From Arenicola marina (Eukaryota; Annelida; Polychaeta; Arenicolidae), in NCBI GenBank assembly GCA_964019135.1, contig OZ025257.1, positions 151,501-215,500 of the forward strand: DNA of 64,000 nucleotides, read 5' to 3'. Shown here piece by piece: positions 2,978-59,727 of this stretch. Position 1 is the first letter of the stretch. Each line of letters opens with the position of its first letter. Both the position numbers and the translations under genes were made by a program. The notes below the pieces were generated by a model that worked only from the letters and a program-made list of their open reading frames with translations, was not told the origin of the DNA and made no database searches.

Positions 2978-2984
2978 TTTATTA
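2978..2984 (-). promoter_or_regulatory. poly(A) signal overlapping the KDM8 stop codon
   Basis: On the minus strand the stop TAA (2984-2982) is followed directly by TAAAG. The hexamer AATAAA (2983-2978) therefore uses the last two bases of the stop codon. If used, the 3' UTR would be only about 20 bases long. Confidence 0.6.
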
Positions 2985-21355: not shown

Positions 21356-24300
21356 ATGCCACTGCCCAAGACGATTCCGCGCCCTACGTCAGCCAAGTCC
21401 AAGTCTGAAAGACGGATTTTGGCCAATCGCTATGCTGTTGAAAAGAAGCTTGGCAAAGGAAACTATGGAACCGCATGGCTAGTCACGGATCTAAAGTGCA
21501 AGGAAGAAAAAGAAAAAAAGTGCGTATTGACTGCTGTAACTACCAGGGATATCACTGTTCTTGTGTTCTTTAGATATGTTTAGATGATCTACTGTATAAT
21601 GCAAAGTCAACCCCATTGCAGGAGAATAAGACAGTAATGCACGTCCTCAGGATGTATGAATGAATGAGGTTTATTTCAGTACTGTAGGTGCAACGCCCAT
21701 GGTACAAGAACAATTCATGCAAGATATATATCAAATTTAAGGAAAAGATACAAGACACATTTATAGTCATAGATCACGACACGCTGCACATATATTCAAA
21801 TTTAAATTAAAGCTGCGAGAAGGTTTTTTCGCGCACAGTGGAGGCTACATATATAAATGCTGCTAATTTCTTTATTTTTTGACTATCTGTTGAAACCATA
21901 GTTAAAATAAAATTATCTTGGCTCGGATAGAGAAAATGAGGTAGGCGCATAGATTGATATAGTGGGCATATCAGTAAAAAGTGGTATTCATGTTCTACTG
22001 GGTATTCCCTGTGTTTTCACAATATTTACAAACCCTTAAGTCTGGTGGTACATTTATATGCCTTCCTTCTTCAATCGCTAGTTTATGTACACTACATCTA
22101 ATTCTCGACAACGCGATTCTTTGCTTTACAATACTCACACAGTCCAAGTAACATTCAATTTCAATAACAGATTTAAATTCTACAGCGCTTTGAAGCTTAC
22201 TATTTGAACACATTACTGAGTACCACTCTTGCTGGCCGATGTCCCTGAGTCTTTGCTTTGCTTCGCTTAAAAATACTTCTGTGTTTCCTACATCTTGAAC
22301 AATCCAACAATACCCGAATCCTAGGCTAAACAATAAGTCTTTGACCTCGGTCGCCCAGGTTCTTCTGTCAATCCCATCGAGTTTATGCATCATATGATAA
22401 CAAGCCTTCGGCAACTGGCTCTCATCCATTCCCAATAAAGTGCACCAAAATTTTAGGAAATTAAACTTACATACAACATCTATCTTGTACCTGCCACATT
22501 CACCTAAAACAATTGAATTTGAAGTGTGGCTGGGCAGTTTCAGCACATATTTACAAAATTTCGTTTGAATCCTTTCAATAGCATCATGTGTGTTAAAGCC
22601 CCAAATTTCACTTCCATATGTTAAGATAGATAGCACCATTTTATCGAATAAATTACACAGCATTTTGACATCAATAAATTTAAGCTTTGTTGCAGTTTGC
22701 AGTATAAACACAGCTGCTTTGTTCGCTTGTTCAGCTAGGGTACGTTGTGACATTGACCAACATAGACGACTAGAAATAATTAACCCAAGATATTTATAAT
22801 ATGATGTACCTCCGAGGTCGACTCCATCAAGATACCATTTTTCATTTTGCCGCAGTGGACCCCCGTTTCGACATACCATAACTTTGGTTTTATTCAAATT
22901 TACTTTACTGTCCTCGGGATGTAACTCCCCAAGGACAGTATAACTTTATGAATCACTTCTGTCTTGAACACAAGTTAACTTCATTTCTATAACATGGGTT
23001 TTGTTGCATGGTATTCATTAAAATGTACTGAAGGTGCACAGCGAAGAATGGTACATACGATAGCTTGATTGCCTTATACAGAACCTTACGATTTATCATT
23101 TGTCTGTAATGTTTCTGAAAGTTGTATATCTATTATATGGTTGGCATCTGTCTACTATAAATGTTTCTCGTAAAAACTTCCGATTACACAAGATCCAGTC
23201 TGTATTTTCCATAGCCTGTGTGCGTTATGTTCTTGTCGTGTAGGAAGGTTGTCAAGGAGATCGCGGTGGGCGACTTGCAACCTGACGAGACGATAGACGC
23301 CATGCACGAGGCCAACTTGCTGAAGAACCTCGACCATCCGGGCATCGTGCGCTTTCACGACAGCTTCATCGAGTCAGATAACTTCTGTATCGTCACCGAA
23401 TATTGCGAGGTATGCGACACTTTGATTAGATTTCATATAGATAACGTCTCAATTAGATTTTTCTTGTATTATAATACTTATAAATTGTGCAAGTTTTGAT
23501 AATGTCACACTTCTTTACGAAGACTGTTGAGCGTTTAATGGTCGTGACATTGTAGGTATAACTAATTTGTCCCTTCATTACGACCTGAGCTATTTCTGTT
23601 TCAAGTACTCATCGTGGTGATGTAGATCGACAAGGCGTTATATATCTACGTACCTATACCTATATATATTTGAGTTATGTCAAAATTTAATTTTCTCAAA
23701 CATTGATAGGGAGGTGACTTGGACCAGAAAATTGCAGAGTACAAGAAGAAGGGTAAATCAATTCCTTCTGCGCAGGTGGTGGAGTGGATCATACAGTTGT
23801 TACTGGCTGTGCAGTTTATACATGAACGGTAAGTATAAAGTACGGATCAGAGGCTGACATGACCGGTATGTATAAAGGTCGGATCAGGGGCTGACATGAC
23901 CGGCAGGTATAAAGTACGGATCTAGAGGCTGACATGACCGATAAGTATAAAGTATGGATGAGAGGCTGACATGACCGGTAAGTATAAAGTACGGATCAGA
24001 GGCTGGCATGACCGGTAAGTATAAAGTACGAATCAGGGACTGACATGACCGGTAAGTATAAAGTACGGATCAGGGGCTGACATGACCGGTGAGTAATAAG
24101 TGCGGATCAGAGGCTGACATGACCGGTAAGTATAAAGTAGAGATGAGGGGCTGACATGACCGGTAAGTATAAAGTGCAGATCAGGGGCTGACATGACCGG
24201 TAAGTATAAAGTACGGATCAGGGGCTGACATGAACGGTTAGTATAAAGTACGACCAGAGGCTGACATGACAGGTGAGTGTAAAGTACAGACCAGGGGCTT

Positions 24301-27300: not shown

Positions 27301-29955
27301 AGTCAGACATGTGTGTAGGCCCTTTACTGTACTAGTCAGACATGTGTGTAAGCCCTTTACCGTACTGGTCAGACATGTGTGTAAGCCCTATACTGTACTA
27401 GTCAGACATGTGTGTAGGCCCTTTACTGTACTAGTCAGACATGTGTGTTGGCCCTTTACTGTACTAGTCAGACATGTGTGTAGGCCCTTTACCATACTAG
27501 TCAGACATGTGTGTAAGCCCTTTACCATACTAGTCAGACATGTGTGTAAGCCCTATACTGTACTAGTCAGACATGTATAGGCTCTTTATCTTACTAATCA
27601 GACAGCGTAAGGTCTATGATGTCCTCGACCAGTCTCAAGGAAGATCGCTACTATTGCTGTACATTGTATGTGACTGTTTTTACCTGTTGCTCACTTTTTA
27701 TCATTTCAGGAGAGTTCTTCACAGAGACTTAAAAGCAAGGTAAATGCTAATGACCTAGCACTGATTGCTATTAGGTTGAAGGCAAGGTGAAGCTTAATGG
27801 CCGGGCACTGATTGCTATAAGGTTGAAGGCAAGGTGAAACTTAATGGCCGGGCACTGATTCCTATAAGGTTGAAGGCAAGGTGAAACTTAATGGCCGGGC
27901 ACTGATTGCTATAAGGTTGAAGGCAAGGTCAATCTTAGTGGCCGGGCACTGATTGCTATAAGGTTGAAGGCAAGGTCAATCTTAGTGGCCGGGCACTGAT
28001 TGCTATAAGGTTGAAGGCAAGGTCAATCTTAGTGGCCGGGCACTGATTGCTATAGGGTTGAAAGCAAGGTCAATCTTAGTGGCCGGGCACTGAGTGCTAT
28101 AAGGTTGAAGGCAAGGTCAATCTTAGTGGCCGGGCACTGATTGCTATTAGGTTGAAGGCAAGGTGAAGCTTAATGGCCGGGCACTGATTGCTATAAGGTT
28201 GAAGGCAAGGTGAAACTTAATGGCCGGGCACTGATTCCTATAAGGTTGAAGGCAAGGTGAAACTTAATGGCCGGGCACTGATTGCTATAAGGTTGAAGGC
28301 AAGGTCAATCTTAGTGGCCGGGCACTGATTGCTATAAGGTTGAAGGCAAGGTCAATCTTAGTGGCCGGGCACTGATTGCTATAAGGTTGAAGGCAAGGTC
28401 AATCTTAGTGGCCGGGCACTGATTGCTATAGGGTTGAAAGCAAGGTCAATCTTAGTGGCCGGGCACTGAGTGCTATAAGGTTGAAGGCAAGGTCAATCTT
28501 AGTGGCCGGGCACTGATTGCTATAAGGTTAAAGGCAAGGTCAATCTTAGTGGCCGGGCACTGATTGCTATAAAGTTGAAGGCAAGGTCAATGTTAGTGGC
28601 CGGGCACTGATTGCTATAAGGTTGAAGGCAAGGTCAATGTTAGTGGCCGGGCACTGATTGCTATGAAGTTGAAGGCAAGGTCAATCTTAGTGGCCGGGCA
28701 CTGATTGCTATAAGGTTGAAGGCAAGGTCAATCTTAGTGGCCGGGCACTGAGTGCTATAAGGTTGTGACACACGAAGGACGTTGTCGGAGCATTCAGTAG
28801 TCCTTGATCGTGTTAACAGTGGCATTGTTATCAGTATGACGGGCGACCAGGTGTGATGACGTCACGTATAATATTACCGTCATAATGTCTCCTCGACAGA
28901 AACATTTTCCTGAAGCACAACATGATCAAGATCGGGGACTTCGGCATTTCTCGGATCCTGATGGGGACCACGGACATGGCCTCGACCTTCGTGGGCACTC
29001 CCTACTACATGAGTCCCGAGGTCCTGAAGCACGAGGGATACAACGCCAAGTCAGACGTGTGGTCAGTGACGCCTCCAGATAAACGTCATGCCATGTGGAG
29101 AGCAACAACCACCTTCCTATATAGTGTATATGATGTCGGGAAGCTTAAACAACTCACCCGTAAACCTATTCTGTTCACTATTCTGATTTGTTGTCGGTAT
29201 ATTGGTTACATTTGTGATTGGGAATGTGGTCCTGATTAAGAAGCTGTGGTATTTCCTGTGCTAATGGTAATGTGTAAACTGTTGTCTTATCTTAAGCTGT
29301 ACTACTATACTTATGAAGATGTTCTTTCAATTCCTTCAATAGGTCTGTGGGCTGCATTCTCTATGAGCTAGTGGCCTTAAAGCATGCCTTTGAAGGGCAG
29401 AGTTTGATGGGAGTCATGTACCAGATAGTCGAAGGCGAGCTTCCCGCGTGGCCACAAGAATACCCTCAGGAACTGAGACAAGTCTTCAACACGTGAGCGT
29501 CCCTCATCGGCTCTCATAGTGCCGCATGCCCTGTGTCATCTCCATGGTTACCCGTATGAGTACATTACATGGTGACGCTCCATAATGGCATTCCATTGTA
29601 TATAAAATGACTAAATTAACACTTCATATGGTAATTCATTATGGTTACTGGCTATGATTAACCACTATATTAACTCACATTGATAACTGGCCATAGTAAG
29701 TCCCAATATGAAACACCTCCCTTGTGTCGCTCTCTATATGATGAGGTGCAGGCTAAGTGACCTGGACTATGCCACGTTATTTGGCTGGATGCGTGTGTCT
29801 TTAGATCCGTGTAATTGTATTGCCTTGATTAGCGACTGTTGTCACCCACGTGACCACTGTGTGCCGTGTGTTGCAGCATTCTGACGAAGAGTCCCGCAGA
29901 GCGACCCAGCGCCGGCGCCGTGCTCAAGCTGGCCTTCCTGGCCAAGCAAATGGAG
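21356..29955 (+). CDS. NEK11: NEK11 exons 1-7: kinase domain (residues 1-290)
   Basis: The glycine loop GKGNYG is at residues 33-38 and the ATP-anchoring Lys is K59 (VVKEI). The catalytic loop HRDLKARN has D156, the Mg-binding DFG is at 173-175, the activation segment ends GTPYYMSPE (E200), and DVWSVGCILYEL follows. All catalytic residues are present, so an active kinase is expected. Exon 4 is only 30 nt and carries the HRD motif, so skipping it (in frame) would remove the catalytic Asp. Exon 1 ends at a GTGCGT donor with the split Lys codon completed in exon 2. Exon 5 uses GTCAGT. Confidence 0.93.
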
Positions 29956-32900
29956 GTAACGCCACAGGCAACTAGTCTCCACTACTGTGAGGGCCAAGTC
30001 ATAACGTGGTGGTCTGGTGGGACAGCTGCAACACCCTGGGTCTGGTGGGACAGCTACAACACCCCGGGTCTGGTAGGACAGCTACAACACCCTGGGTCTG
30101 GTGGGACAGCTACAACACCCTGGGTCTGGTGGGACAGCTACAAGACCCCGGGTCTGGTGGGACAGCTACAACACCCCCGGGTCTGGTGGGACAGCTACAA
30201 CACCCTGGGTCTGGTGGGACAGCTACAACACCCTGGGTCTGGTGGGACAGCTACAACACCCCGGGTCTGGTGGGACAGCTACAACACCCCGGGTCTGGTG
30301 GGACAGCTACAACACCCCGGGTCTGGTGGGACAGCTACAACACCCCGGGTCTGGTGGGACAGCTACAACACCCCGGGTCTGGTGGGACAGCTACAACACC
30401 CCGGGTCTGGTGGGACAGCTACAACACCCTGGGTCTGGTGGGACAGCTACAACACCCCGGGTCTGGTGGGACAGCTACAACACCCCGGGTCTGGTGGGAC
30501 AGCTACAACACCCCGGGTCTGGTGGGACAGCTACAACACCCTGGGTCTGGTGGGACAGCTACAACACCCCGGGTCTGGTGGGACAGCTACAACACCCCGG
30601 GTCTCTTGGGACAGCTACAACACCCCGGGTCTCGTGGGATTCGCCTGACAGGTGTTTCAACCCCGCAGTAAACATGCCTCTTTATTTGCAGTTATTGACG
30701 AATACAATGATGGATCGCCATAGCAGTAAGCGGGAGAAGGCCCATCAGGACTCCCAGCACCTGGCCCAGGCAATGTAAGCCATTCACATACACAAGTCAC
30801 ATCACATGGCCCAGGCAATGTAAGCCATCTACATACACAGGTCACATCAACTGGCCCAGGCAATGTAAGCCATCCACATACACAGGTCACATCACCTGGC
30901 CCAGGCAATGTAAGCCATCCACATACACAGGTCACATCACCTGGCCCAGGCAATGTAAGCCATCCACATACACAGGTCACAACACCTGGCCCAGGCAATG
31001 TAAGCCATCCACATACACAGGTCACAACACCTGGCCCAGGCAATGTAAGCCACCACATACACAGGTCACAACACCTGGCCCAGACAATGTAATCATCCAC
31101 ATACACAGGTCACATCACCTGGCCCAGGCAATGTAAGCACCCACATACACAGGCCACAACACCTGGCCCAGGCAATGTAAGCCATTCACATACACAGGTC
31201 ACAACACCTGGCCCAGGCAATGTAAGCATCCACATACACAGGTCACATCACCTGGCCCAGGCAATGTAAGCATCCACATACACAGGTCACGTCATCTGGC
31301 CCAGGCAATGTAAGCATCCGCATACACAGGTCACATCACCTGGCCCAGGCAATGTAAGCCATTCACATACACAGGTCACAACACCTGGCCCAGGCAATGT
31401 AAGCATCCACATACACAGGTCACATCACCCGGCCCAGGCAATGTAAGCCATCCACATACACAGGTCACATCACCTGGCCCAGGCAATGTAAGCCACCACA
31501 TACACAGGTCACTTCACCTATCGTGTCACACTGTCCTGTCACACTGTCCTGTCACACTGTCCTGTCACACTGTCTTGTTACACTGTCCTGTCACATTGTC
31601 CTGTCACACTGTCCTGTCACACTGTCCTGTCACACTGTCCTGTCGCACTGTCCTGGCGCCACTGTCCCGTCACACTGTCCTGTCACACTGTCCTGTCACA
31701 CTGTCCTGTCACACTGTCCTGTCACACTGTCCTGTCACACTGTCCTGTCACACTGTCCTGTCACACTGTCCTGTCACACTGTCCTGTCACACTGACCTGT
31801 CACACTGTCCTGTCACACTGTCCTGTCACACTGTCCTGTCACACTGTCCTGTCACACTGTCCTGTCACACTGTCCTGTCACACTGTCCTGTCACACTGTC
31901 CTGTCACACTGTCCTGTCACACTGTCCTGTCACCCTGTCCTGTCACACTGTCCTGTCACACTGTCCTGTCACACTGTCCTGTCACACTGTCCTGTCACAC
32001 TGTCCTGTCACACTGTCCTGTCACACTGTCCTGTCACACTGTCCTGTCACCCTGTCCTGTCACACTGACCTGTCACACTGTCCTGTCACACTGTCCTGTC
32101 ACACTGTCCTGTCACACTGACCCGTCACTAAAGTCAGTCATAAATGCCGTAGACACACGTTTCGGCCCATATTTTCCGCGAATTTGCCTCAATCACTCTC
32201 GAAATTCCTGACGTGAGAAAGCAACACTAGACCATTTTAATGATACCAAACTTACGTTTGTAATGCGATGTTATCCTTTTTTATGACACAAAGAATATTT
32301 CTCCATGCTGACACGCCATTGGCAGAAAACGCTCTGTCGCCAAAATACTAAAACACGCGTCATAAAATGATGGTTGCCATGGCGCCGAACGTGCTTTGAA
32401 CAATACATGCTCTATATTTATACAAGCCACGAGGATGCCATGGCAACTAAAGAGCCTTTCATTGTCTGGGATTTAGTCTATTTGCGAAAGTGTGTCTGCT
32501 GCCAATGGAGTGTCAGCATGGAGAAATATTGTTTGTGTCATAAAAAAGGATAACATCGCAGTACAAACGTAAGTTTGGTATCATTAAAATGGTCTAGTGT
32601 TGCTTTCTCCTGTCAGTGATTTGTAGAGCGATCGCAGCACAATCGCGGAAAATATAGGCCGAAACGTGTGTCTACGGCATTTATGACTTTGACTTTACAC
32701 ACTGTTTGCAGGAAAGAGAACAAGAGCATCGATCAGCTAAAGAAAGAATCGGAGGAGAAAAAGTGGAAGAATTTGGCGCCACGAGAACGATACAGAATCC
32801 GGAAGATGGAGAAGGCTGACGAGGAGGCGAGGAAACTGAGGCAAGTTGTAATAATAATAAATAATAATAAGTTAACTGTACTAAAAGGCCTCAGGCCCAT

Positions 32901-35900
32901 TACATACAAAACATATATACAAACTCAATTGTTCTTCCCGGTCCCTATAAACCAGTTTAGATTTAAATGGTTTCCCTTGAGGACCCTGCATGGAATATAA
33001 ATTGACTCAGCTGATAAAATATTTCGTCATTTCTCGATTTCATTAGGATTATAAAGTCTGATAGGCAATAATTTCTGATCCAGGGTAAGTATTTCTTACG
33101 ACTGTCGATATATAGATCACATACGCACACAAAGTGAAATTCGTCTTCATCGTTGAAGAGGTAAGTTATCAAGGAGAGAGCTGACGAGGACGCCAAGATA
33201 TGTTGACCGTTTCGACGGCACAATACGCCGACTGCTAAATATAATACATGTAATAGTAAGATAAAAACATGCAGTGTATATTTCAAGGTTGCCATATTGT
33301 GGCCGTGATTGGCAGTGATTTGATGCGGTATATCATGTCCCCAGAGAGGCCGCTGAACACCAAGTGAAGGCCAACCGAGCCAAGTATGACGAGCTGAGGA
33401 CGACCATGAGTCCCTACCAGTCCCACGTGAGTGAGGGGTCCGCCCCTAACTAACACACATTATACCTGTGATGTGACGACCATGAGTCCCTACCAGTCCC
33501 ACGTGAGTGAGGGGTCCGCCCCTAACTAACACACATTATACCTGTGATGTGACGACCATGAGTCCCTACCAGTCCCACGTGAGTGAGGCGACCGCCTCTA
33601 ACTAACACACATTATGCCTGTGATGTGACGACCATGAGTCCCTGCCAGTCCCACGTGTGTGAGGGGTCCGCCCCTAACTAACACACATTATACCTGTGAT
33701 GTGACGACCATGAGTCCCTACCAGTCCCACGTGAGTGAGGGGTCCGCCCCTAACTAACACACATTATACCTGTGATGTGACGACCATGAGTCCCTACCAG
33801 TCCCACGTGAGTGAGGGGTCCGCCCCTAACTAACACACATTATACCTGTGATGTGACGACCATGAGTCCCTACCAGTCCCACGTGTGTGAGGGGTCCGCC
33901 CCTAACTAACACACATTATACCTGTGATGTGACGACCATGAGTCCCTACCAGTCCAACGTGAGTGAGTCGACCGCCTCTAACTAACACACATTATGCCTG
34001 TGATGTGACGACCATGAGTCCCTACCAGTCCCACGTGAGTGAGGGGTCCGCCCCTGACTAACACACATTATACCTGTGATGTGACGACCATGAGTCCCTA
34101 CCAGTCCCACGTGAGTGAGGGGTCCGCCCCTAACTAACACACATTATACCTGTGATGTGACGACCATGAGTCCCTACCAGTCCCACGTGAGTGAGGGGTC
34201 CGTTCCTAACTAACACACATTATACCTGTGATGTGACGACCATGAGTCCCTACCAGTCCAACGTGAGTGAGTCGACCGCCTCTAACTAACACACATTATG
34301 CCTGTGATGTGACGACCATGAGTCCCTACCAGTCCCACGTGAGTGAGGGGTCCGCCCCTGACTAACACACATTATACCTGTGATGTGACGACCATGAGTC
34401 CCTACCAGTCCCACGTGAGTGAGGGGTCCGCCCCTAACTAACACACATTATACCTGTGATGTGACGACCATGAGTCCCTACCAGTCCCACGTGAGTGAGG
34501 GGTCCGTTCCTAACTAACACACATTATACCTGTGATGTGACGACCATGAGTCCCTACCAGTCCCACATGAGTGAGGCGACCGCCCCTAACTAACACACAT
34601 TATACCTGTGATGTGACGACCATGAGTCCCTACCAGTCCAACGTGAGTGAGGCGACCGCCTCTAACTAACACACATTATGCCTGTGATGTGACGACCATG
34701 AGTCCCTACCAGTCCCACGTGAGTGAGGGGTCCGCCCCTAACTAACACACATTATGCCTGTGATGTGACGACCATGAGTCCCTACCAGTCCCACGTGAGT
34801 GAGGGGTCCGCCCCTAACTAACACACATTATACCTGTGATGTGACGACCATGAGTCCCTACCAGTCCCACGTGAGTGAGGGGTCCGCCCCTAACTAACAC
34901 ACATTATACCTGTGATGTGACGACCATGAGTCTCTACCAGTCCCACGTGAGTGAGGGGTCCGCCCCTAACTAACACACATTATACCTGTGATGTGACGAC
35001 CATGAGTCCCTACCAGTCCCACGTGAGTGAGGCGACCGCCCCTAACTAACACACATTATACCAGTGATGTGACGACCATGAGTCCCTACCAGTCCCACGT
35101 GAGTGAGGGGTCCGCCCCTAACTAACACACATTATACCTGTGATGTGAAGACCATGAGTCCCTACCAGTCCCACGTGAGTGAGGCGACCGCCCCTAACTA
35201 ACACACATTATACCTGTGATGTGACGACCATGAGTCCCTACCAGTCCCACGTGAGTGAGGGGTCCGCCCCTGACTAACACACATTATACCTGTGATGTGA
35301 CGACCATGAGTCCCTACCAGTCCCACGTGAGTGAGGGGTCCGCCCCTAACTAACACACATTATACCTGTGATGTGACGACCATGAGTCCCTACCAGTCCC
35401 ACGTGAGTGAGGCGACCGCCCCTAACTAACACACAGTATACCTGTGATGTGACGACCATGAGTCCCTACCAGTCCCACGTGAGTGAGGGGTCCGCCCCTA
35501 ACTAACACACATTATACCTGTGATGTGACGACCATGAGTCCCTACCAGTCCCACGTGAGTGAGGGGTCCGCCCCTAACTAACACACATTATACCTGTGAT
35601 GTGACGACCATGAGTCCCTACCAGTCCCACGTGAGTGAGGGGTCCGCCCCTAACTAACACACATTATACCTGTGATGTGACGACCATGAGTCCCTACCAG
35701 TCCCACGTGAGTGAGGGGTCCGCCCCTAACTAACACACATTATACCTGTGATGTGACGACCATGAGTCCCTACCAGTCCCACGTGAGTGAGGGGTCCGTT
35801 CCTAACTAACACACATTATACCTGTGATGTGACGACCATGAGTCCCTACCAGTCCCACGTGAGTGAGGCGACCGCCCCTAACTAACACACATTATACCTG

Positions 35901-38900
35901 TGATGTGACGACCATGAGTCCCTACCAGTCCAACGTGAGTGAGGCGACCGCCTCTAACTAACACCCATTATGCCTGTGATGTGACGACCATGAGTCCCTA
36001 CCAGTCCCACGTGAGTGAGGGGTCCGCCCCTAACTAACACACATTATACCTGTGATGTGACGACCATGAGTCACTACCAGTCCCACGTGAGTGAGGGGTC
36101 CGCCCCTAACTAACACACATTATACCTGTGATGTGACGACCATGAGTCCCTACCAGTCCCACGTGAGTGAGGGGTCCGCCCCTAACTAACACACATTATA
36201 CCTGTGATGTGACGACCATGAGTCCCTACCAGTCCAACGTGAGTGAGGCGACCGCCTCTAACTAACACACATTATACCTGTGATGTGACGACCATGAGTC
36301 CCTACCAGTCCCACGTGAGTGAGGGGTCCGCCCCTAACTAACACACATTATACCTGTGATGTGACGACCATGAGTCACTACCAGTCCCACGTGAGTGAGG
36401 GGTCCGCCCCTAACTAACACACATTATACCTGTGATGTGACGACCATGAGTCCCTACCAGTCCCACGTGAGTGAGGGGTCCGCCCCTAACTAACACACAT
36501 TATGCCTGTGATGTGACGACCATGAGTCCCTACCAGTCCCACGTGAGTGAGGGGTCCGCCCCTAACTAACACACATTATACCTGTGATGTGACGACCATG
36601 AGTCCCTACCAGTCCCACGTGAGTGAGGCGACCGCCCCTAACTAACACACATTATACCTGTGATGTGACGACCATGAGTCCCTACCAGTCCCACGTGAGT
36701 GAGGGGTCCGCCCCTGACTAACACACATTATACCTGTGATGTGACGACCATGAGTCCCTACCAGTCCCACGTGAGTGAGGCGACCGCCCCTAACTAACAC
36801 ACATTATACCTGTGATGTGACGACCATGAGTCCCTACCAGTCCCACGTGAGTGAGGGGTCCGCCCCTAACTAACACACATTATACCTGTGATGTGACGAC
36901 CATGAGTCCCTACCAGTGCCACGTGAGTGAGGGGTCCGCCCCTAACTAACACACATTATACCTGTGATGTGACGACCATGAGTCCCTACCAGTGCCACGT
37001 GAGTGAGGGGTCCGCCCCTAACTAACACACATTATACCTGTGATGTGACGACCATGAGTCCCTACCAGTCCCACGTGAGTGAGGGGTCCGCCCCTAACTA
37101 ACACACATTATACCTGTGATGTGACGACCATGAGTCCCTACCAGTCCCACGTGAGTGAGGCGACCGCCCCTAACTAACACACATTATACCTGTGATGTGA
37201 CGACCATGAGTCCCTACCAGTCCCACGTGAGTGAGGCGACCGCCCCTAACTAACACACATTATACCTGTGATGTGACGACCATGAGTCCCTACCAGTCCC
37301 ACGTGAGTGAGGGGTCCGCCCCTAACTAACACACATTATACCTGTGATGTGACGACCATGAGTCCCTACCAGTCCCACGTGAGTGAGGGGTCCGCCCCTA
37401 ACTAACACACATTATACCTGTGATGTGACGACCATGAGTCCCTACCAGTCCTACGTGAGTGAGGCGACCGCCCCTAACTAACACACATTATACCTGTGAT
37501 GTGACGACCATGAGTCCCTACCAGTCCTACGTGAGTGAGGGGACCGCCCCTAACTAACACACATTATACCTGTGATGTGACGACCATGAGTCCCTACCAG
37601 TCCCACGTGAGTGAGGCGACCGCTCCTAACTAACACACATTATACCTGTGATGTGACGACCATGAGTCCCTACCAGTCCCACGTGAGTGAGGCGACCGCT
37701 CCTAACTAACACACATTATACCTGTGATGTGACGACCATGAGTCCCTACCAGTCCCACGTGAGTGAGGGGTCCGCCCCTAACTAACACACATTATACCTG
37801 TGATGTGACGACCATGAGTCCCTACCAGTCCTACGTGAGTGAGGCGACCGCCCCTAACTAACACACATTATACCTGTGATGTGACGACCATGAGTCCCTA
37901 CCAGTCCTACGTGAGTGAGGGGACCGCCCCTAACTAACACACATTATACCTGTGATGTGACGACCATGAGTCCCTACCAGTCCCACGTGAGTGAGGCGAC
38001 CGCTCCTAACTAACACACATTATACCTGTGATGTGACGACCATGAGTCCCTACCAGTCCCACGTGAGTGAGGCGACCGCCCCTAACTAACACACATTATA
38101 CCTGTGATGTGACGACCATGAGTCCCTACCAGTCCCACGTGAGTGAGGGGTCCGCCCCTAACTAACACACATTATACCTGTGATGTGACGACCATGAGTC
38201 CCTACCAGTCCCACGTGAGTGAGGCGACCGCCCCTAACTAACACACATTATACCTGTGATGTGACGACCATGAGTCCCTACCAGTCCAACGTGAGTGAGG
38301 CGACCGCCCCTAACTAACACACATTATACCTGTGATGTGACGACCATGAGTCCCTACCAGTCCCACGTGACTGAGGGGTCTGCCCCTAACTAACACACAT
38401 TATACCTGTGATGTGACGACCATGAGTCCCTACCAGTCCCACGTGACTGAGGGGTCTGCCCCTAACTAACACACATTATACCTGTGATGTGACGACCATG
38501 AGTCCCTACCAGTGCCACGTGAGTGAGGCGACCGCCCCTAACTAACACACATTATACCTGTGATGATCCCAGACATGTTCAGATGACCAGAAACCCAAAA
38601 AGCATTATATATATCCAGGTATTGCTGAAGTGACGTCTCAAAGCAGCATTCGTCATGCTCCTCGTGCTGTGCTGGCAAATCTCTTACAATTATAGACCGA
38701 TTGGGTCGGTATTGCAAAAAATACATGCTATCAAGTGAATAATGTAGAATAAGAATTTCGTTTAAGATTAGTTGTTCCATTATTCTTCGTTGTCTTTTAC
38801 AATTACTTACATACTGTGACCTTAAGATCTATTTTCGGCCTGAGCAGGTTAACCTCCCGGCGTGGTCCGCACAGGGAGCTGAGGGCAGCCGACGGCGGAG

Positions 38901-46784: not shown

Positions 46785-47530
46785 CGCTGTCTGACACCGT
46801 CATAGCGCTGTCTGACACCCTCATAGCGCTGTCGGGTACCCCCATAGCGCTGTCTGACACCCTCATAGCGCTGTCTGACACCCTCATAGCGCTGTCTGAC
46901 ACCCTCATAGCGCTGTCTGACACCCTCATAGCGCTGTCTGACACCCTCATAGCGCTGTCTGACACCCTCATAGCGCTGTCTGACACCCTCATAGCGCTGT
47001 CGGGTACCCCCATAGCGCTGTCTGACACCCTCATAGCGCTGTCTGACACCCTCATAGCGCTGTCTGACACCCTCATAGCGCTGTCGGGTACCCCCATAGC
47101 GCTGTCTGACACCCTCATAGCGCTGTCTGACACCCTCATAGCGCTGTCTGGCACCCTCATAGCGCTGTCGGGTACCCCCATAGCGCTGTCTGACACCCTC
47201 ATAGCGCTGTCTGATACCGTCATAGCGCTGTGTGATACCGTCATAGCGCTGTCTGACACCCTCATAGCGCTGTCTGATACCGTCATAGCGCTGTCTGACA
47301 CCCTCATAGCGCTGTCTGACACCCTCATAGCGCTGTGTGGTGCCCCCATAGCGCTGTCTGACACCCTCATAGCGCTGTCTGATACCCCCATATCGCTGTC
47401 GGGTACCCCCATAGCGCTGTCTGACACCCTCATAGCGCTGTGTGATACCTTCATAGCGCTGTGTGATACCCTTATAGCGCTGTCTGATACCCCCATAGCG
47501 CTGTCTGACACCCGCATAGCGCTGTTTGAT
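46774..47530 (+). repeat. 21-bp stop-codon minisatellite at the NEK11 end, about 36 units
   Basis: The last NEK11 codons ATA CCC TCA TAG are the start of the first unit. The unit is ACCCTCATAGCGCTGTCTGAC. Variants include GGTACCCCCATAGCGCTGTC and ACCGTCATAGCGC. The coding end and 3' UTR junction is thus reiterated along with the TAG. Confidence 0.94.
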
Positions 47531-49405: not shown

Positions 49406-49454
49406 GCTGACTGGTTCAGTTTAACAATGAGCGTACCAGACACTTTAAATAGTC

Positions 49455-49900
49455 TAGCGTAACTTACACCTAGATGACAGTTAGCGTAACTTACACCTAG
49501 ATGACAGTTAGCGTAACTTACACCTAGATTACAGTTAGCGTAACTTACACCTAGATTACAGTTAGCGTACACTTGGCGTTCCGGATGCCTAGACTACAGT
49601 GAGAGTACCGGACCCCCAGAGAGTTCCAGAGTGCAGTGAGTGATCAAACAGTATTATTTACGACAAGCTGCACTTAGTCTGATAGCGCGGTAGTCCGGCT
49701 TGTTTGTTGTTGTTGTTTGCTGTTGGTTGTCGTCACTCAAGGAACCTTCAGAACGCCACGGTCCAAGGCGAAATGTCACAAGTCACGTGACGGTCCAAGG
49801 CGAAATGTCACAAGTCACGTGACGGTCCAAGGCGAAATGTCACAAGTCACGTGACGGTCCAAGGCGAAATGTCACAAGTCACGTGACGATCCAGGACACC
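49455..49900. repeat. two short minisatellites (27 bp and 32 bp)
   Basis: AGCGTAACTTACACCTAGAT plus GACAGTT repeats about four times at 49455-49565. CGGTCCAAGGCGAAATGTCA plus CAAGTCACGTGA repeats four times at 49759-49888, with one further diverged copy. Each 32-bp unit contains the palindrome TCACGTGA, which includes an E-box (CACGTG). Confidence 0.85.
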
Positions 49901-50276
49901 ATGGCACAAGTCCCGTGACGACCTAGGACCAGTGACGTGACGGGTTGTTTGGCCCAGGTGGAGGGGTGGCACTGGCACTGGTGAGAGTGCACGCGGTGTG
50001 GTTAGCGCACTGTGGGTGTGATGCCTTAATGCCTGTAATGTGACTAGGCGCCCGGCAGGAGATGCTATGTATGACGTATTGCTGCCAAGTTACCGTAGTC
50101 TCTCCCTGTATATAGTGAGATGTTGCCTATCGCAGGCACACGTGGCGTTAAACCCAATCAAAACAAACCGTGGCTCGAACCAATCTCCGCAGCGAGTGCA
50201 GCGCCATCTGGTTACATTGTCAGGTTGGATACAGCAATCCTAAAACACTGATTGTATTGCATCTCATGTCCTAAAT

Positions 50277-50317
50277 AATAAAAATGATAAGATATTTACT
50301 GATCGTGTCACTTTATT
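50277..50317. terminator. overlapping convergent poly(A) signals of NEK11 and SEC14L
   Basis: A plus-strand AATAAA at 50277-50282 and a minus-strand AATAAA (TTTATT at 50312-50317) lie 29 bp apart facing each other. They are the best candidates for the 3' ends of the convergent genes. Cleavage of each would occur inside or beyond the other's signal. The minus signal lies about 630 bp beyond the SEC14L stop. Confidence 0.5.
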
Positions 50318-50519
50318 GTCTCTGGATCTCGTGTCGATGGCTACAAGTTGGTATTTAGGAAATGGTTTAGTATCGCCATTTATAAATTACGGTCACATAC
50401 AATGTTCTGCTTTCCATGAGAAACTACGTTTATGCCAACAGTTGCCATGACTACTCGTCCCATATTATACCCACAACACCCATTACAAATTACGGTAAAA
50501 ACTCTAATATACAGCAAGT

Positions 50520-50720
50520 TCCGGCCACACCTCTAATATCAACGATAACAAGTTACGGTCATCGCTATCATATCAACGATAACAAGTTACGGTCATCGCT
50601 ATCATATCAACTATAACAAGTTATGGTCATCGCTATCATATCAACTATAACAAGTTATGGTCATCGCTTTCATATCAACGATAACAAGTTACGGTCATGG
50701 CTCTCATATCAACGATACAA
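50520..50720. repeat. 34-bp minisatellite, about 5 units
   Basis: Units contain ATATCAACGATAACAAGTTA followed by CGGTCATCGCTATC. It lies in the presumed 3' UTR of the minus-strand SEC14L gene. Confidence 0.85.
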
Positions 50721-50849
50721 GTCACGGCCACAAGTCCACATTGCCTATTGTAAGTTATGACCGCAACTCTGATATCATAATCCATTATAAGACATCAGCC
50801 AACAAACATTAGAGGTAGACATGTGACACACCCATCACCCCAGCCACAC

Positions 50850-50948
50850 ACATCACAGCTAGACATCTGAAAGACCTATCACCCCAGCCACACACATCAC
50901 AGGTATACATCTGATAGACCCATCACCCCAGCCACACACATCACAGAT
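50850..50948 (-). repeat. 44-bp stop-codon repeat at the SEC14L end, 3 units
   Basis: On the minus strand the gene ends ATC CAT CTG TGA and continues TGTGTGTGGCTGGGG. CTGTGATGTGTGTGGCTGGG recurs with its TGA at 50897-50899 and 50853-50855, exactly 44 bp apart. The stop codon is part of the unit, as in NEK11. Confidence 0.88.
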
Positions 50949-53900
50949 GGATATCTTCGTTCATGTCGTCATCAAGTTGTTGCCCTTCAACGATTTCTTT
51001 GGAAGCGTCTGTCAGCGTGTAGTCGTCCGACATCTTCACAACCTCCACACTGTATGTCAAAGTTCGCTTGACAAGCTTACTCGGGTTTTTAAATAACAAT
51101 ATATCTGCAAAAAAACAACAGAGGCGTTACTTACAGGTGTCCGTCTCGTTACTTACAGGTGTCGATCTCGTTACTTACAGGTGTCGGTCTCGTTACTTAC
51201 AGGTGTCGGTCTCGTTACTTACAGGTGTCCGTCTCGTTACTTACAGGTGTCTGTCTCGTTACTTACAGGTGTCAATCTCGTTACTTACAGGTGTCCGTCT
51301 CGTTACTTACAGGTGTCAGTCTCGTTAATTACAGGTGTCGGTCTCGTTACTTACAGGTGTCGGTCTCGTTACTTACAGGTGTCAGTCTCGTTACTTACAG
51401 ATGTCCGTCTCGTTACTTACAGGTGTCGGTCTCGTTACTTACAGGTGCCGGGACTTTCACAGAAGAACATGCCGTCCTCGGGCACTCGGTGAACCTCGTA
51501 CTTGCTGCAGGGGACAACCACGTCCAGTGTGTCCAGCTCGTCCTGAGTGACCTTCACCTTGCTCTCTCGGTTTTGAGAGTTGGACTGAACAGTGACCTGC
51601 CTCGGTTCTCGGTAGACGCCAAACTCTATGTCGCTCACTTCGGTGGCAAATATCCATCTGGTGCGCAAAGTGAGATAATGTGCAAACATCACACAGATTT
51701 AGTGAGTGACTGGGGCCATTGACACCCGACATATATTGTTTTACAACGAATTCCCTTTTAACCGTGTCTTTTCCCACTCAAGACACGACCAGCATCTTTA
51801 AAACCCTTAAATAGTTATGAGAAATATTTTGATTTTTCAAACCTTAGATCTTATGACGTCCATGACCTCATCACTCACCTGATGACGTCCATGACCTCAC
51901 CACTTACCTGATGACGTTCACGGCCTCACCACTCACCTGATGACGTCCACGGCCTCACCACTCACCTGATGACGTCCATGGCCTCACCACTCACCTGATG
52001 ACGTCCATGGCCTCACCACTCACCTGATGACGTCCACGGCCTCACCACTCATCTGATAACGTCCACGGCCTCACCACTCACCTGGTGACGTCCATGGCTT
52101 CACCACTCACCCGATGACGTCCATGGCCTCACTACTCACCAGATGACGTCCATGACCTCCCCACTCACCTGATGACGTCCATGACCTCCCCACTCAACTG
52201 ATGACGTCTATGACCTCCCCACTCACCTGATGACGTCCATAGCGCCACCACTCACCTGATGACGTCCACGGCCTCACCACTCATCTGATGACGTCCATGG
52301 CCTCAGCACTCACCTGATGACGTCCATAGCGCCACCACTCACCTGATGACGTCCATTACCTCACCACTCCCCTGATGACGTCCATGACCTCCCCACTCAC
52401 CTGATGACGTCTATGACCTCCCCACTCACCTGATGACGTCCATAGCGCCACCACTCACCTGATGACGTCCATTACCTCACCACTCACCTGATGACGTCCA
52501 TGACCTCCCCACTCACCTGATGACGTCCATGGCCTCAGCACTCACCTGATGACGTCCATAGCGCCACCACTCACCTGATGACGTCCATTACCTCACCACT
52601 CACCTGATGACGTCCATGACCTCCCCACTCACCTGATGACGTCTATGACCTCCCCACTCACCTGATGACGTCCATAGCGCCACCACTCACCTGATGACGT
52701 CCATTACCTCACCACTCACCTGATGACGTCCATGACCTCCCCACTCACCTGATGACGTCCATAGCGCCACCACTCACCTGATGACGTCCATAGCGCCACC
52801 ACTCACCTGATGACGTCCATGGCCTCACCACTCACCTGATGACGTCCATGACCTCCCCACTCACCTGATGACGTCCATAGCGCCACCACTCACCTGATGA
52901 CGTCCATGGCCTCACCACTCACCTGATGACGTCTATGACCTCCCCACTCACCTGATGACGTCCATAGCGCCACCACTCACCTGATGACGTCCATTACCTC
53001 ACCACTCACCTGATGACGTCCATGACCTCCCCACTCACCTGATGACGTCCATAGCGCCACCACTCACCTGATGACGTCCATAGCGCCACCACTCACCTGA
53101 TGACGTCCATGACCTCCCCACTCACCTGATGACGTCCATAGCGCCACCACTCACCTGATGACGTCCATAGCGCCACCACTCACCTGATGACGTGGGTCTG
53201 TTCTGGGATGATATACATCAGGCGAAAGCTGCCCCCTCGGTGAAGAGTGACATTGTTTGGGTTCAGATTCGACGGGAAAAACTCTTCTTTCCTCCGATAG
53301 AACGACTTGGGCACATCTCCACCATAGCATACCTGTCAGAGTAAAGTGTAGGACTAGATCCAGGCACATCTCCACCATAACATATCTGTCAGAGTAAAGT
53401 GTAGGACTACATGTAAGCACATCTCCACCATAACATATCTGTCAGAGTAGAGTGTATGACTAGATCAAGGCAAATGTCCACCATTATATGATAACATATC
53501 TGTCAGAGTAGAGTGTAGGACTAGATCTAGGCAGATCTCCATCATAACATATCTGTCAGAGTAAAGTGTAGGACTAGATCTAGGCAAATCTCCACCATAA
53601 CATATCTGTCAGAGTAGAGTGTAGGACTAGATATGGGCAAATCTCCACCATAACATATCTGTCAAGAGTAGAGTGTAGGACTAGATCTAGGCAAATCTCC
53701 ACCATAACATATCTGTCAGAGTAGAGTGTAGGACTAGATATGGGCAAATCTCCACCATAACATATCTGTCAAGAGTAGAGTGTAGGACTAGATCTAGGCA
53801 AATCTCCACCATAACATATCTGTCAGAGTAAAGTGTAGGACTAGATCTAGGCAGATCTCCATCATAACATATCTGTCAGAGTAAAGTGTAGAACTAGATC

Positions 53901-56900
53901 TAGGCAGATCTCCATCATAACATATCTGTCAGAGTAAAGTGTAGGACTAGATCTAGGCAAATCTCCACCATAACATATCTGTCAGAGTAGAGTGTAGGAC
54001 TAGATATGGGCAAATCTCCACCATAACATATCTGTCAAGAGTAGAGTGTAGGACTAGATGTAGGCAAATCTCCACCATAACATATCTGTCAGAGTAGAGT
54101 GTAGGACTAGATATGGGCAAATCTCCACCATAACATATCTGTCAGGGTAGAGTGTAGGACTAGATCTGGGCACATGTCCACCATAACATATCTGTCAGAG
54201 TAGAGTGTAGGACTAGATCTGGGCAAATCTCCACCATAACACATCTGTCAGAGTAGAGTGTAGGACTAGATCTAGGCAAATCTCCACCATAACATATCTG
54301 TCAGAGTAGAGTGTAGGACTAGATCTGGGCAAATCTCCACCATAACACATCTGTCAGAGTAGAGTATAGGAGTAGATCAAGGCACATATCCACCATAACA
54401 TATCTGTCAGAGTAAACGGACTATACGTGGCCAAGTGACCCCTCCTACGCTATCAGTTAGTCTTTGCCTGTCATGTGGTCAGTACTCAGTCTACTGACTA
54501 CCTACGCTCTCAGTGCAACCAGATACAGGTAAAGCTCTGACCTTGGATTCGACCTTGGGGTTGCCATCTGGGTCGGTGGCTTTGCCGCCATAGTACTGAG
54601 GCAACACGTCCAGGTCCACCACCTTCATGACCTCCTCCTTCCAGCCATCTGCAACCAACGCACACACAGTCACACCACCTTCATGACCTCCTCCTTCCAG
54701 CCATCTGCAACCAACGCACACACAGTCACACCACCTTCATGACCTCCTCCTTCCAGCCATCTGCAACCAACGCACACACAGTCACACCACCTTCATCACC
54801 TCCTCCTTCCAGCCATCTGCAACCAACGCACACACAGTCACACCACCTTCATCACCTCCTCCTTCCAGCCATCTGCAACCAACGCACACACAGTCACACC
54901 ACCTTCATGACCTCCTTCTTCCAGCCATCTGCAACCAACGCACACACAGTCACACCACCTTCATGACCTCCTCCTTCCAGCCATCTACAACCAACGCACA
55001 CACAGTCACACCACCTTCATGACCTCCTCCTTTCAGCCATCTACAACCAACGCACACACAGTCACACCACCTTCATGACCTCCTCCTTCCAGCCATCTGC
55101 AACCAACGCACACACAGTCACATCACCGTTATCACCTCCTCCTTCCAGCCATCTGCAACCAACGCACACACAGTCACACCACCTTCATGACCTCCTCCTT
55201 CCAGCCATCTGCAACCAACGCACACACAGTCACACCACCTTCATGACCTCCTCCTTCCAGCCATCTGCAACCAACGCACACACAGTCACACCACCTTCAT
55301 GACCTCCTCCTTCCAGCCATCTGCAACCAACGCACACACAGTCACACCACCTTCATCACCTCCTCCTTCCAGGCATCTGCAACCAACGCACACACAGTCA
55401 CACCACCTTCATCACCTCCTCCTTCCAGCCATCTGCAACCAACGCACACACAGTCACATCACCGTTATCACCTCCTCCTTCCAGCCATCTGCAACCAACG
55501 CACACACAGTCACACCACCTTCATCACCTCCTCCTTCCAGCCATCTACAACGAACGCACACACAGCCACACCACCTTCATCACCTCCTCCTTCCAGCCAT
55601 CTGCAACCAACGCACACACAGTCACACCACCGTCATCACCTCCTCCTTTCAGCCATCTACAACCAACGCACACACAGTCACATCACCGTTATCACCTCCT
55701 CCTTCCAGGCATCTGCAACCAACGCACACACAGTCACACCACCTTCATCACCTCCTCCTTCCAGCCATCTGCAACCAACGCACACACAGTCACATCACCG
55801 TTATCACCTCCTCCTTCCAGGCATCTGCAACCAACGCACACACAGTCACACCACCTTCATCACCTCCTCCTTCCAGCCATCTGCAACCAACGCACACACA
55901 GTCACACCACCTTCATCACCTCCTCCTTCCAGGCATCTGCAACCAACGCACACACAGTCACACCACCTTCATCACCTCCTCCTTCCAGCCATCTGCAACC
56001 AACGCACACACAGTCACATCACCGTTATCACCTCCTCCTTCCAGCCATCTGCAACCAACGCACACACAGTCACACCACCTTCATCACCTCCTCCTTTCAG
56101 CCATTTACAACCAACGCACACACAGTCACACCACCTTCATGACCTCCTCCTTCCAGTCATCTGCAACCAACGCACACACAGTCACATCACCGTTATCACC
56201 TCCTCCTTCCAGCCATCTGCAACCAACGCACACACAGTCACACCACCGTCATCACCTCCTCCTTCCAGCCATCTGCAACCAACGCACACACAGTCACACC
56301 ACCTTCATGACCTCCACCTTCCAGCCATCTGCAACCAACGCACACACAGTCACATCACCGTTAGCACCTCCTCCTTCCAGGCATCTGCAACCAACGCACA
56401 CACAGTCACACCACCGTCATCACCTCCTCCTTCCAGCCATCTGCAACCAACGCACACACAGTCACATCACCGTTATCACCTCCTCCTTCCAGCCATCTGC
56501 AACCAACGCACACACAGTCACACCACCGTCATCACCTCCTCCTCCCAGCCATCTGCAACCAACGCACACACAGTCACATGACCTTCATCACCTCCTAGCT
56601 CCTTCCAGCCATCTACAACCAACGCACACACAGTCACACCACCTTCATGACCTCCTCCTTCCAGCCATCTACAACCAACGCACACACAGTCACACCACCT
56701 TCATGACCTCCTCCTTCCAGCCATCTGCAACCAACGCACACACAGTCACACCACCTTCATCACCTTCTCCTTCCAGCCATCTACAACCAACGCACACACA
56801 GTCACACCACCTTCATCACCTTCTCCTTCCAGCCATCTGCAACCAACGCACACACAGTCACACCACCTTCATCACCTTCTCCTTCCAGCCATCTGCAACC

Positions 56901-59727
56901 AACGCACACACAGTCACACCACCTTCATCACCTCCTAGCTCCTTCCAGCCATCTACAAACAACGCACACACAGTCACACCACCTTCATCACCTCCTCCTT
57001 CCAGCCATCTACAACCAACGCACACACAGTCACACCACCGTCATCACCTCCTCCTTCCAGCCATCTGCAACCAACGCACACACAGTCACACCACCTTCAT
57101 CACCTCCTAGCTCCTTCCAGCCATCTACAACCAACGCACACACAGTCACACCACCTTCATCACCTTCTCCTTCCAGCCATCTACAACCAACGCACACACA
57201 GTCACACCACCTTCATCACCTTCTCCTTCCAGCCATCTGCAACCAACGCACACACAGTCACACCACCTTCATCACCTCCTAGCTCCTTCCAGCCATCTAC
57301 AAACAACGCACACACAGTCACACCACCTTCATCACCTCCTCCTTCCAGCCATCTACAACCAACGCACACACAGTCACACCACCGTCATCACCTCCTCCTT
57401 CCAGCCATCTGCAACCAACGCACACACAGTCACACCACCTTCATCACCTCCTAGCTCCTTCCAGCCATCTACAACCAACGCACACACAGTCACACCACCT
57501 TCATCACCTCCTAGCTCCTTCCAGCCATCTGCAACCAACGCACACACAGTCACACCACCTTCATCACCTCCTAGCTCCTTCCAGCCATCTACAACCAACG
57601 CACACACAGTCACACCACCTTCATCACCTCCTAGCTCCTTCCAGCCATCTGCAACCAACGCACACACAGTCACACCACCTTCATCACCTCCTCCTTCCAG
57701 CCATCTGCAACCAACGCACACACAGTCACACCACCTTCATCACCTCCTAGCTCCTTCCAGCCATCTACAACCAACGCAGACACAGTCACACCACCTTCAT
57801 CACCTCCTCCTTCCAGCCATGTGCAACCAACGCACACACAGTCACACCACCGTCATCACCTCCTCCTTCCAGCCATCTGCAACCAACGCACACACAGTCA
57901 CATCACCTTCATCACCTCCTAGCTCCTTCCAGCCATCTACAACCAACGCACACACAGTCACACCACCTTCATCACCTCCTAGCTCCTTCCAGCCATCTAC
58001 AACCAACGCAGACACAGTCACACCACCTTCATCACCTCCTCCTTCCAGCCATGTGCAACCAACGCACACACAGTCACACCACCGTCATCACCTCCTCCTT
58101 CCAGCCATCTGCAACCAACGCACACACAGTCACATCACCTTCATCACCTCCTAGCTCCTTCCAGCCATCTACAACCAACGCACACACAGTCACACCACCT
58201 TCATCACCTTCTCCTTCCAGCCATCTGCAACCAACGCACACACAGTCACACCACCTTCATCACCTCCTAGCTCCTTCCAGCCATCTACAACCAACGCACA
58301 CACAGTCACACCACCTTCATCACCTTCTCCTTCCAGCCATCTACAACCAACGCACACACAGTCACACCACCTTCATCACCTTCTCCTTCCAGCCATCTGC
58401 AACCAACGCACACATAGTCACACCTCCTTCATCACCACCTCCTTGCAGCTATCTGCAACCAACGCACACAGTCACGCTGTGTAAATAAAGGCATCACACA
58501 CCCGGCATCACACACCCAGCATCACACACCCGACATCACACACCCGGCATCGTACACCCGGCATCACACACCCGGCATCACACACCCGGCATCGCACACC
58601 CGACATCACACACCCGGGATCACACACCCGGCATCACACACCCAGCATCACACACCCGGCATCGTACACCCGGCATCACACACCCGGCATCACACACCCG
58701 GCATCGCACACCCGACATCACACACCCGGCATCACACACCCGGCATCACACACCCAGCATCACACACCCAGCATCACACACCCGACATCACACACCCGGC
58801 ATCGTACACCCGGCATCACACACCCGGCATCACACACCCGACATCACACACCCGGCATCACACACCCGGCATCGCACACCCGACATCACACACCCGGCAT
58901 CACACACCCGACATCACACACCCGGCATCACACACCCGACATCACACACCCGGCATCGCACACCCGACATCACACACCCGGCATCACACACCCGGCATCA
59001 CACACCCGGCATCACACACCCGACATCACACACCCGGCATCGCACACCCGGCATCACACACCCGGCATCACATACCCGGCATCACACACCCAGCACCACA
59101 CACCCGGCATCACACACCCGGCATCACACACCCGGCATCACACACCCGGCATCGCACACCCGGCATCACACACCCGGCATCACACACCCGGCATCTCACA
59201 CCCAGCATCACACACCCAGCATCACACACCCGACATCACACACCCGGCATCACACACCCGGCATCACACACCCGGTATCACACACCCGGCATCACACACC
59301 CGGCATCACACACCCGGCATCACACACCCGGCATCACACACCCGGCAAATATCGCAAGAGATATTGTTAATGTGAACGTTTGCTGCACTCTCGATGGAGT
59401 CAAACTGACAGGTCGTTCTTCCATGTTAATGCGAAGCAGCGAAGCATTGTTTTAACATAGCTCACTTATGACTCATCCCTACCATTTACCATAATAACAC
59501 TTTTCTTGGGCTCTAACAAGGAAAATGGACGGACAGACGCGACACACACACAGGAGTTATGTGAACTTATTAAGGTATTATAGAAGAACGTTTACAGACA
59601 GCTGGGAAGAATCACGTGACATACGAAGGTTCACTCTACTTACGGTCACACACCACAAACTTAGCCACGGTGTTCTTGTCGATAAACTGTTTGATGACAT
59701 TGTAACCAATCTTAAAGATTTTAGGCG
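50941..59727 (-). CDS. sec14l2-like: SEC14-like protein (SEC14L2/3/4 type), 3' five exons
   Basis: Exons in coding order: 59727-59644, 54648-54542, 53332-53184, 51657-51443, 51104-50941. Reading phase is continuous throughout, ending in TGA. The first two encode the end of the CRAL-TRIO lipid-binding domain (PKIFKIGYNVIKQFIDKNT; YYGGKATDPDGNPKVESK, compare human EYGGTMTDPDGNPKCKSK). The last three encode the GOLD domain (CYGGDVPKSFYRR, EVHRVPEDGMFFCESPGTYI). A final acidic tail is LDDDMNEDIHL. Family members bind hydrophobic ligands such as squalene, tocopherol or phosphoinositides in the cytosol. The N-terminal part of the CRAL-TRIO domain lies beyond 64000, so the gene is partial. All four complete introns have a splice-site minisatellite. 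Which of SEC14L2, 3 or 4 is closest cannot be told. Confidence 0.92.
51120..51450 (-). repeat. 22-bp donor-site minisatellite, last SEC14L intron, about 14 units
   Basis: On the minus strand the fourth listed exon ends CCCGGCACCT followed by GTAAGTAACGAG. The unit reads GACACCT followed by GTAAGTAACGAGACC and continues almost to the last exon's acceptor at 51105. Nearly all units keep CCT followed by GTAAGT. Confidence 0.94.
51855..53195 (-). repeat. 29-bp donor-site minisatellite, SEC14L GOLD intron, about 45 units
   Basis: On the minus strand the exon end ACGTCATCAG followed by GTGAGTGG is reiterated every 29 bp as GGACGTCATCAG followed by GTGAGTGG(T/G)G. The genuine donor is at 53183. Only a few copies lose the GTGAGT. 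Confidence 0.95.
53310..54415 (-). repeat. 53-bp acceptor-site minisatellite, SEC14L intron, about 20 units
   Basis: On the minus strand the genuine acceptor TACTCTGACAG (AG at 53334-53333) precedes GTATGCTATGGTGGAGATGT. Units repeat CTACTCTGACAG then ATATGTTATGGTGGAGATTT. Each unit thus holds an acceptor plus about 20 exon-derived bases. Confidence 0.94.
54612..58470 (-). repeat. 56/60-bp acceptor-site minisatellite, SEC14L intron, about 67 units
   Basis: On the minus strand each unit has GTGTGTGCGTTGGTTGCAG followed by exon bases ATGGCTGGAAGGAGGAGGTC then ATGAAGGTGG. The genuine junction is the one at 54649/54648, where the exon continues into GACCTGGACGTG. Two unit lengths alternate: 56 bp, and 60 bp with an extra AGCT. 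The 60-bp form is a multiple of three and leaves long open stretches. Confidence 0.96.
58490..59345. repeat. 14-bp minisatellite, SEC14L intron, about 61 units
   Basis: Units of CGGCATCACACACC with A/G and T variants (CGACATC, CAGCATC, GCATCGTACACC). Longer blocks of the same variant order recur, for example around 58550-58620 and 58665-58710. It follows the 56-bp acceptor array and ends about 300 bp from the exon at 59644. Confidence 0.95.
59346..59643. other. remaining intron sequence next to a SEC14L exon
   Basis: Unique sequence between the 14-bp array and the SEC14L exon. It contains the minus-strand donor GTAAGT at 59643-59638. Nothing else was recognised. Confidence 0.5.

Follow-up and report, generated by a model that had tools for sequence, protein, structure and literature searches.

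Boundary-anchored minisatellites of the amphioxus 'mirage' type at splice junctions and stop codons of two adjoining annelid genes

Minisatellites whose repeat unit straddles an exon-intron boundary have been described from amphioxus as 'mirages'. In the literature examined, as far as its accessible sections go, they are confined to a handful of amphioxus genes, namely Adh3 and the globins BflGb6 and BflGb9, with troponin C also cited and similar repeats in PGBD5 (PMC3087553, PMC3902484). According to the available text, mirages affect donor and acceptor boundaries alike, are unstable both somatically and between alleles and seem to leave splicing normal (PMC3087553, PMC3902484), and data including RT-PCR suggest that splicing is undisturbed by mirages (PMC3087553). 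Human genes located in segmental duplications contain internal tandem repeats with units of about 30 bp on average, some of them at exon-intron boundaries, where, according to the sections available, they changed splicing or made novel introns in recent paralogues (PMC2812944). A further related process is Rogers-type intron gain, tandem duplication of a segment containing AG/GT, as recounted in the accessible part of PMC3087553. The earthworm metallothionein gene carries minisatellites in its first intron and duplications of its fourth exon that are absent from transcripts (PMC12783039). Boundary-spanning units are not described in the accessible parts of this earthworm study, of a C. elegans study (PMC4039745) or of a Plasmodiophora study (PMC6823432), and the titles and abstract openings among the matches listed, which cover few subscription journals, contained no further annelid or other report of such arrays.

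Here, we analysed a 64-kb stretch of annelid DNA, referred to as the window, in which two convergent genes, NEK11 and SEC14L, comprise 18 complete introns in total. NEK11 (21356..46784, plus strand) has 15 coding exons and a complete ORF of 655 aa; SEC14L (59727..50941, minus strand) is represented by its last five coding exons, with the terminal stop codon present. Domain searches identified a kinase domain in NEK11 and a CRAL/TRIO domain in SEC14L, and PDB matches were to NEK proteins and to SEC14L3/2/4 (best E 6e-35), respectively. Among the best 120 of 4364 matches, the closest named full-length NEK11 proteins were from Lamellibrachia satsuma (56%) and from Capitella teleta (54%), and lancelet proteins ranked lower. 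In a tree of 35 hand-chosen rows, obtained by a short search with no bootstrap, the window protein fell into a clade of seven rows with Lamellibrachia, Capitella, Dimorphilus and three further rows (SH-aLRT 99). The lancelet rows were placed away from this clade, and NEK11 of the annelid Owenia was also placed elsewhere, with weak support. Tree and match ranking together led us to reject an amphioxus origin for this DNA. The homologue search with SEC14L returned two distant matches only and was of no help with placement. All NEK11 introns are GT-AG save intron 9 (32841-33344), which has a GC-AG donor (TGAG|GCAAGT). The catalytic-loop HRDLK motif is encoded by exon 4 (27710-27739), an exon of 30 bases.

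Tandem repeats were identified with TRF, which returned 46 rows in the 64 kb, several of them re-describing one array. The region from the NEK11 start to the last SEC14L exon accounted for 29 rows; after six had been dropped as re-descriptions with another period, 17 intronic arrays and six arrays between NEK11 and SEC14L were left. Eleven of the 17 intronic arrays span a splice junction, eight at donors and three at acceptors, and these lie in 10 of the 18 complete introns (NEK11 introns 3, 4, 8, 10, 11 and 13 and SEC14L introns 1-4), just as the initial annotation of this DNA had stated. For ten of the eleven, the edges given by TRF already overlap the junction. The eleventh, in NEK11 intron 4, reaches it by the edge of a permissive wraparound alignment, applied to this array alone: its TRF start (27758) lies 18 bases beyond the exon, while its permissive start (27729) takes in 11 exon bases. 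The exon-edge copy of this array is 79% like the other copies, which are 93% alike among themselves. Permissive edges brought no other intronic array to a junction, and without NEK11 intron 4 the count is 10 of 17 arrays in nine introns.

On the plus strand, donor arrays of NEK11 are found in intron 3 (23820..24299, unit 37, nine exon bases), intron 4 (27729..28765, unit 47, 11 exon bases, first copy diverged), intron 8 (30758..31519, unit 45, 17 exon bases), intron 10 (33399..38565, unit 76, 68 copies, 28 exon bases) and intron 13 (41498..45527, unit 31, 130 copies, 19 exon bases). Intron 11 (38945..40567) is anchored at both ends, by a donor array (38906..39835, unit 60-64, 39 exon bases) and an acceptor array (39849..40577, unit 45, 10 exon bases); with only 13 bases between the two, 99% of the intron is array. 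On the minus strand, SEC14L carries acceptor arrays in intron 1 (54617..58470, unit 56, 68 copies, 32 exon bases) and intron 2 (53310..54414, unit 53, 23 exon bases) and donor arrays in intron 3 (51853..53193, unit 29, 10 exon bases) and intron 4 (51105-51442), where the array (51125..51451, unit 22, nine exon bases) makes up 94% of the intron. Anchoring at junctions is thus independent of strand, as had been proposed; the exon share, put previously at 10-30 bases, ranges from 9 to 39. Junctions were spread over the unit in a way compatible with a uniform distribution (p 0.10 and 0.18).

In each of the 11 arrays the unit contains an exon edge plus the splice site, the outermost copy is the genuine junction and the extra copies are confined to the intron. 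This is the anatomy of amphioxus mirages as given in the accessible descriptions, in which the unit spans a donor or acceptor boundary and extra copies are intronic. The initial annotation was correct in pointing to such a class at amphioxus Adh, and the class takes in Adh3, globin and other genes (PMC3087553, PMC3902484); its acceptor form is less unusual than was supposed, since one is already reported from the globin BflGb6 in the available text (PMC3087553). The window therefore belongs to the known mirage class and adds a second phylum. Unlike the amphioxus cases, the arrays described here occur in an annelid, affect 10 of 18 introns of two adjoining genes, reach up to 130 copies, occupy both ends of one intron and include stop codons, the last being an extension of the class. 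That all arrays extend into the intron only had been noted before, and this follows from coding constraint with no need for a special mechanism.

In 10 of 13 arrays, the exon copy resembles the remaining copies about as much as inner copies do. Exceptions are NEK11 intron 4, the NEK11 intron 11 acceptor array and SEC14L intron 2, the value for the last being unreliable because of indels. Unit identity decreased with distance from the exon copy in 5 of 12 testable arrays (p < 0.01), a trend that is unreliable for the NEK11 intron 11 donor array, SEC14L intron 2 and partly SEC14L intron 1, where unit cutting drifts with indels, which leaves SEC14L intron 3 and the array at the NEK11 stop codon.

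The protein alignments bear on which copy is used. SEC14L aligns with SEC14L3 ungapped at all four junctions, and the NEK11 alignment runs on unbroken across introns 3, 4 and 8; introns 10, 11 and 13 lie in poorly conserved stretches, with a few extra residues directly before intron 13. Judged from the sequence, the conserved protein would require the exon-side copy, and splicing presumably takes place there. In this respect the locus differs from the human boundary repeats. If inner copies were used, nine of the 11 arrays would run into a stop after at most three copies; the first inner copy already gives a stop in eight, and SEC14L intron 2 does so only with three. One exception is NEK11 intron 13, which stays open, with one or two inner copies shifting the frame and three restoring it. 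The other is the NEK11 intron 11 acceptor array, which forms a 240-codon open frame in the phase of exon 12 and would encode 15-aa repeats. This reading frame suggests that alternative acceptor use in intron 11 could be tolerated, adding repeats to the protein. Ten of the 11 arrays acquire a frame shift or a stop from a single inner copy, the intron 11 acceptor array again being the exception, with frame-shift effects counted locally.

Seven of the eight donor arrays hold 8-122 further GT sites whose scores equal or exceed that of the used donor; the donor used in NEK11 intron 4 outscores every other site in its array. With so many equal or stronger donors, strength by itself does not account for which site is used, which leaves exon context or position to decide. 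According to the introduction of one paper, SRSF1 favours intron-proximal donors and hnRNP A1 intron-distal ones (PMC5585400). Given these opposing preferences, the choice of donor is not self-evident.

The initial annotation regarded the coincidence of arrays and junctions as far beyond chance. Present-day introns are the wrong control for this claim because the arrays themselves lengthen introns. Every array was therefore collapsed to one unit and dropped at random in introns. Collapsed in this way, array-bearing introns measure 33-628 nt, except NEK11 intron 3 with 2471 nt. Random placement of each array within its own intron gave 4.6 of 17 spanning arrays against the 11 observed (P 5.8e-5), and placement pooled over the 18 introns gave 1.85 (P 3.8e-8). 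Arrays also prefer GC-rich DNA: their GC content is 0.41-0.69 for junction and stop-codon arrays and 0.37-0.66 for interior arrays, compared with 0.38 for non-array intron DNA, and a preference fitted on 10 interior arrays had a beta of 6.46 (LR 7.88). With seeding weighted accordingly, 5.57 spanning arrays were expected within own introns (P 5.3e-4) and 3.52 in the pooled placement (P 3.3e-5). Exon-edge GC was 0.573 at the 11 boundaries with arrays and 0.520 at the 25 without, not a significant difference (p 0.21). When the overlap threshold, the edge of the intron 4 array or the unit length was varied or the two shortest introns were omitted, P lay between about 4e-3 and 7e-10. All these P values are uninformative genome-wide because the window was picked for its striking look. 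Of the 13 intronic arrays with units of at least 20 bases, 11 reach across a junction. Short collapsed introns and the GC preference of arrays account for part of the apparent excess. The excess is real (11 against 4.6-5.6 within own introns) and smaller than had been claimed. GC-biased seeding yields 5.6 or 3.5 rather than 11, so some boundary-specific factor is missing, and a two- to three-fold excess is left after GC weighting.

Arrays are not restricted to splice junctions. The NEK11 stop codon lies in an array at 46775..47529 on the plus strand (unit 21), which includes 10 coding bases with the TAG, and the SEC14L stop codon in an array at 50796..50946 on the minus strand (unit 44), which by its TRF edge includes six coding bases with the TGA. 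Two of the six arrays between NEK11 and SEC14L therefore span a stop, whereas 0.13 were expected (P ~0.006). No spanning array was found at the NEK11 start or at the start or stop of a third gene in the window, a KDM8/JMJD5-like gene with its coding sequence in a single open frame (2982-4289, minus strand). Of the 41 coding boundaries counted, made up of 36 splice junctions, three stops and two starts, 13 are anchored by an array. As NEK11 and SEC14L both have their stop codon within such an array, splice sites are not special, and the proposal of a process peculiar to splicing is not supported, although the KDM8 stop is free of arrays. The distribution speaks less for splicing itself than for the border where constrained sequence meets free sequence, with two cases carrying the argument.

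We therefore favour, with a little better than even confidence, the view that the arrays belong to the mirage class of boundary-anchored minisatellites and were produced by GC-biased local duplication and filtered by coding constraint. A short stretch would be duplicated in place and then expanded by slippage or unequal exchange, seeds arising preferentially within GC-rich DNA. Selection would remove arrays that lie inside exons or alter the used junction or stop, whereas arrays at the coding edge would be tolerated, with copy number free to change outward, because the exon-side copy still serves as donor, acceptor or stop. The constrained exon copy would stay intact while the rest of the array turns over, which may help boundary arrays to persist.

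Mutation tied to transcription or splicing, with R-loops, pausing or exon-end breaks seeding duplications at coding boundaries, is an unlikely alternative that has two observations in its favour. The first is the excess left after GC weighting. Secondly, donors with arrays outscore donors without (8 versus 10, MW p 0.003; scored with general donor frequencies, 18 donors compared including the GC-AG donor). Stronger array-bearing donors are not predicted by plain filtering and count against that explanation. However, the two stop-codon arrays have no known splice site, and donors and acceptors alike are affected.

Quite improbable, to our mind, is the birth of the introns themselves by Rogers-type tandem duplication of exon segments, considered at least for SEC14L intron 4 and NEK11 intron 11. 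The likeness lies in exon-derived duplicates with splice signals, and the two introns collapse to 33 nt (SEC14L intron 4, 94% array) and 69 nt (NEK11 intron 11, 99%). An intron of 33 nt is under the usual lower length limit for splicing. SEC14L intron 4 would thus have needed its array, or sequence since lost, to be an intron. Against simple tandem-duplication gain, in none of the 18 introns does an array overlap both exons, so that a duplicated segment at both flanking exons, judged by array overlap, is absent throughout; most introns also retain unique sequence.

Selection for spare splice sites, by which arrays of functional sites would be retained, had been suggested in the initial annotation, together with the statement that every unit carries the splice site. 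The latter is nearly true: the splice dinucleotides of extra copies show about 15 variant calls where 31 were expected, GT/AG varying about half as much as random column pairs. This reduction favours retention of spare sites, but it is not significant (P 0.09; 0.19 and 0.13 by two other statistics), and the frame shifts and stops entailed by inner copies weigh against such selection. Only 3 of the 11 units have a length divisible by three; units are thus not tuned to the reading frame, as expected if the exon-side copy alone is used. We consider such selection very improbable. That ordinary intronic minisatellites touch junctions by chance in the short introns of a repeat-rich genome deserves hardly any credence, for although random placement in own introns brings about a quarter to a third of the 17 into contact, 11 do so, and P did not exceed about 4e-3 in any of the variants.

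As a tentative and rather doubtful extension, boundary-anchored duplication, not limited to splice sites, might operate genome-wide in this annelid lineage, having arisen independently of the amphioxus case, and rebuild introns and 3' ends from coding edges, some introns (SEC14L intron 4, NEK11 intron 11) almost wholly, so that the spliceosome would have to choose the exon-side copy from up to 123 identical donors. A second phylum, the higher density and the stop-codon cases would let the process be tested as a general one, and the arrays represent natural experiments in splice-site choice.

Several minor features of the window were also recorded. Across the 20 non-junction arrays, two of which are the stop-codon arrays, a test for donor-like motifs gave a Fisher P of 0.007, which includes the array at 46039 (p 0.001, antisense donor-like) and that at 58490 (p 0.047). 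The former, an 18-bp array in NEK11 intron 14 (46039-46493), carries in its unit, in antisense orientation, a strong motif resembling a 5' splice site, its p value being relative to shuffled units and one among 20 tested. At 11640-12075, a 31-bp array overlaps a minus-strand ORF that is open in more than one frame and has no Pfam match above cut-off; this may be another boundary array. Degenerate readings resembling LINE-type reverse transcriptase, judged by eye, are present in NEK11 intron 1 (22000-22900, minus strand) and intron 3 (24700-25600, plus strand). The homologue search with KDM8 gave no clear placement among the 120 matches listed. Its coding region contains an in-frame 36-bp repeat of 2.2 copies (3732-3812), which can serve as an example of an array tolerated within coding sequence.
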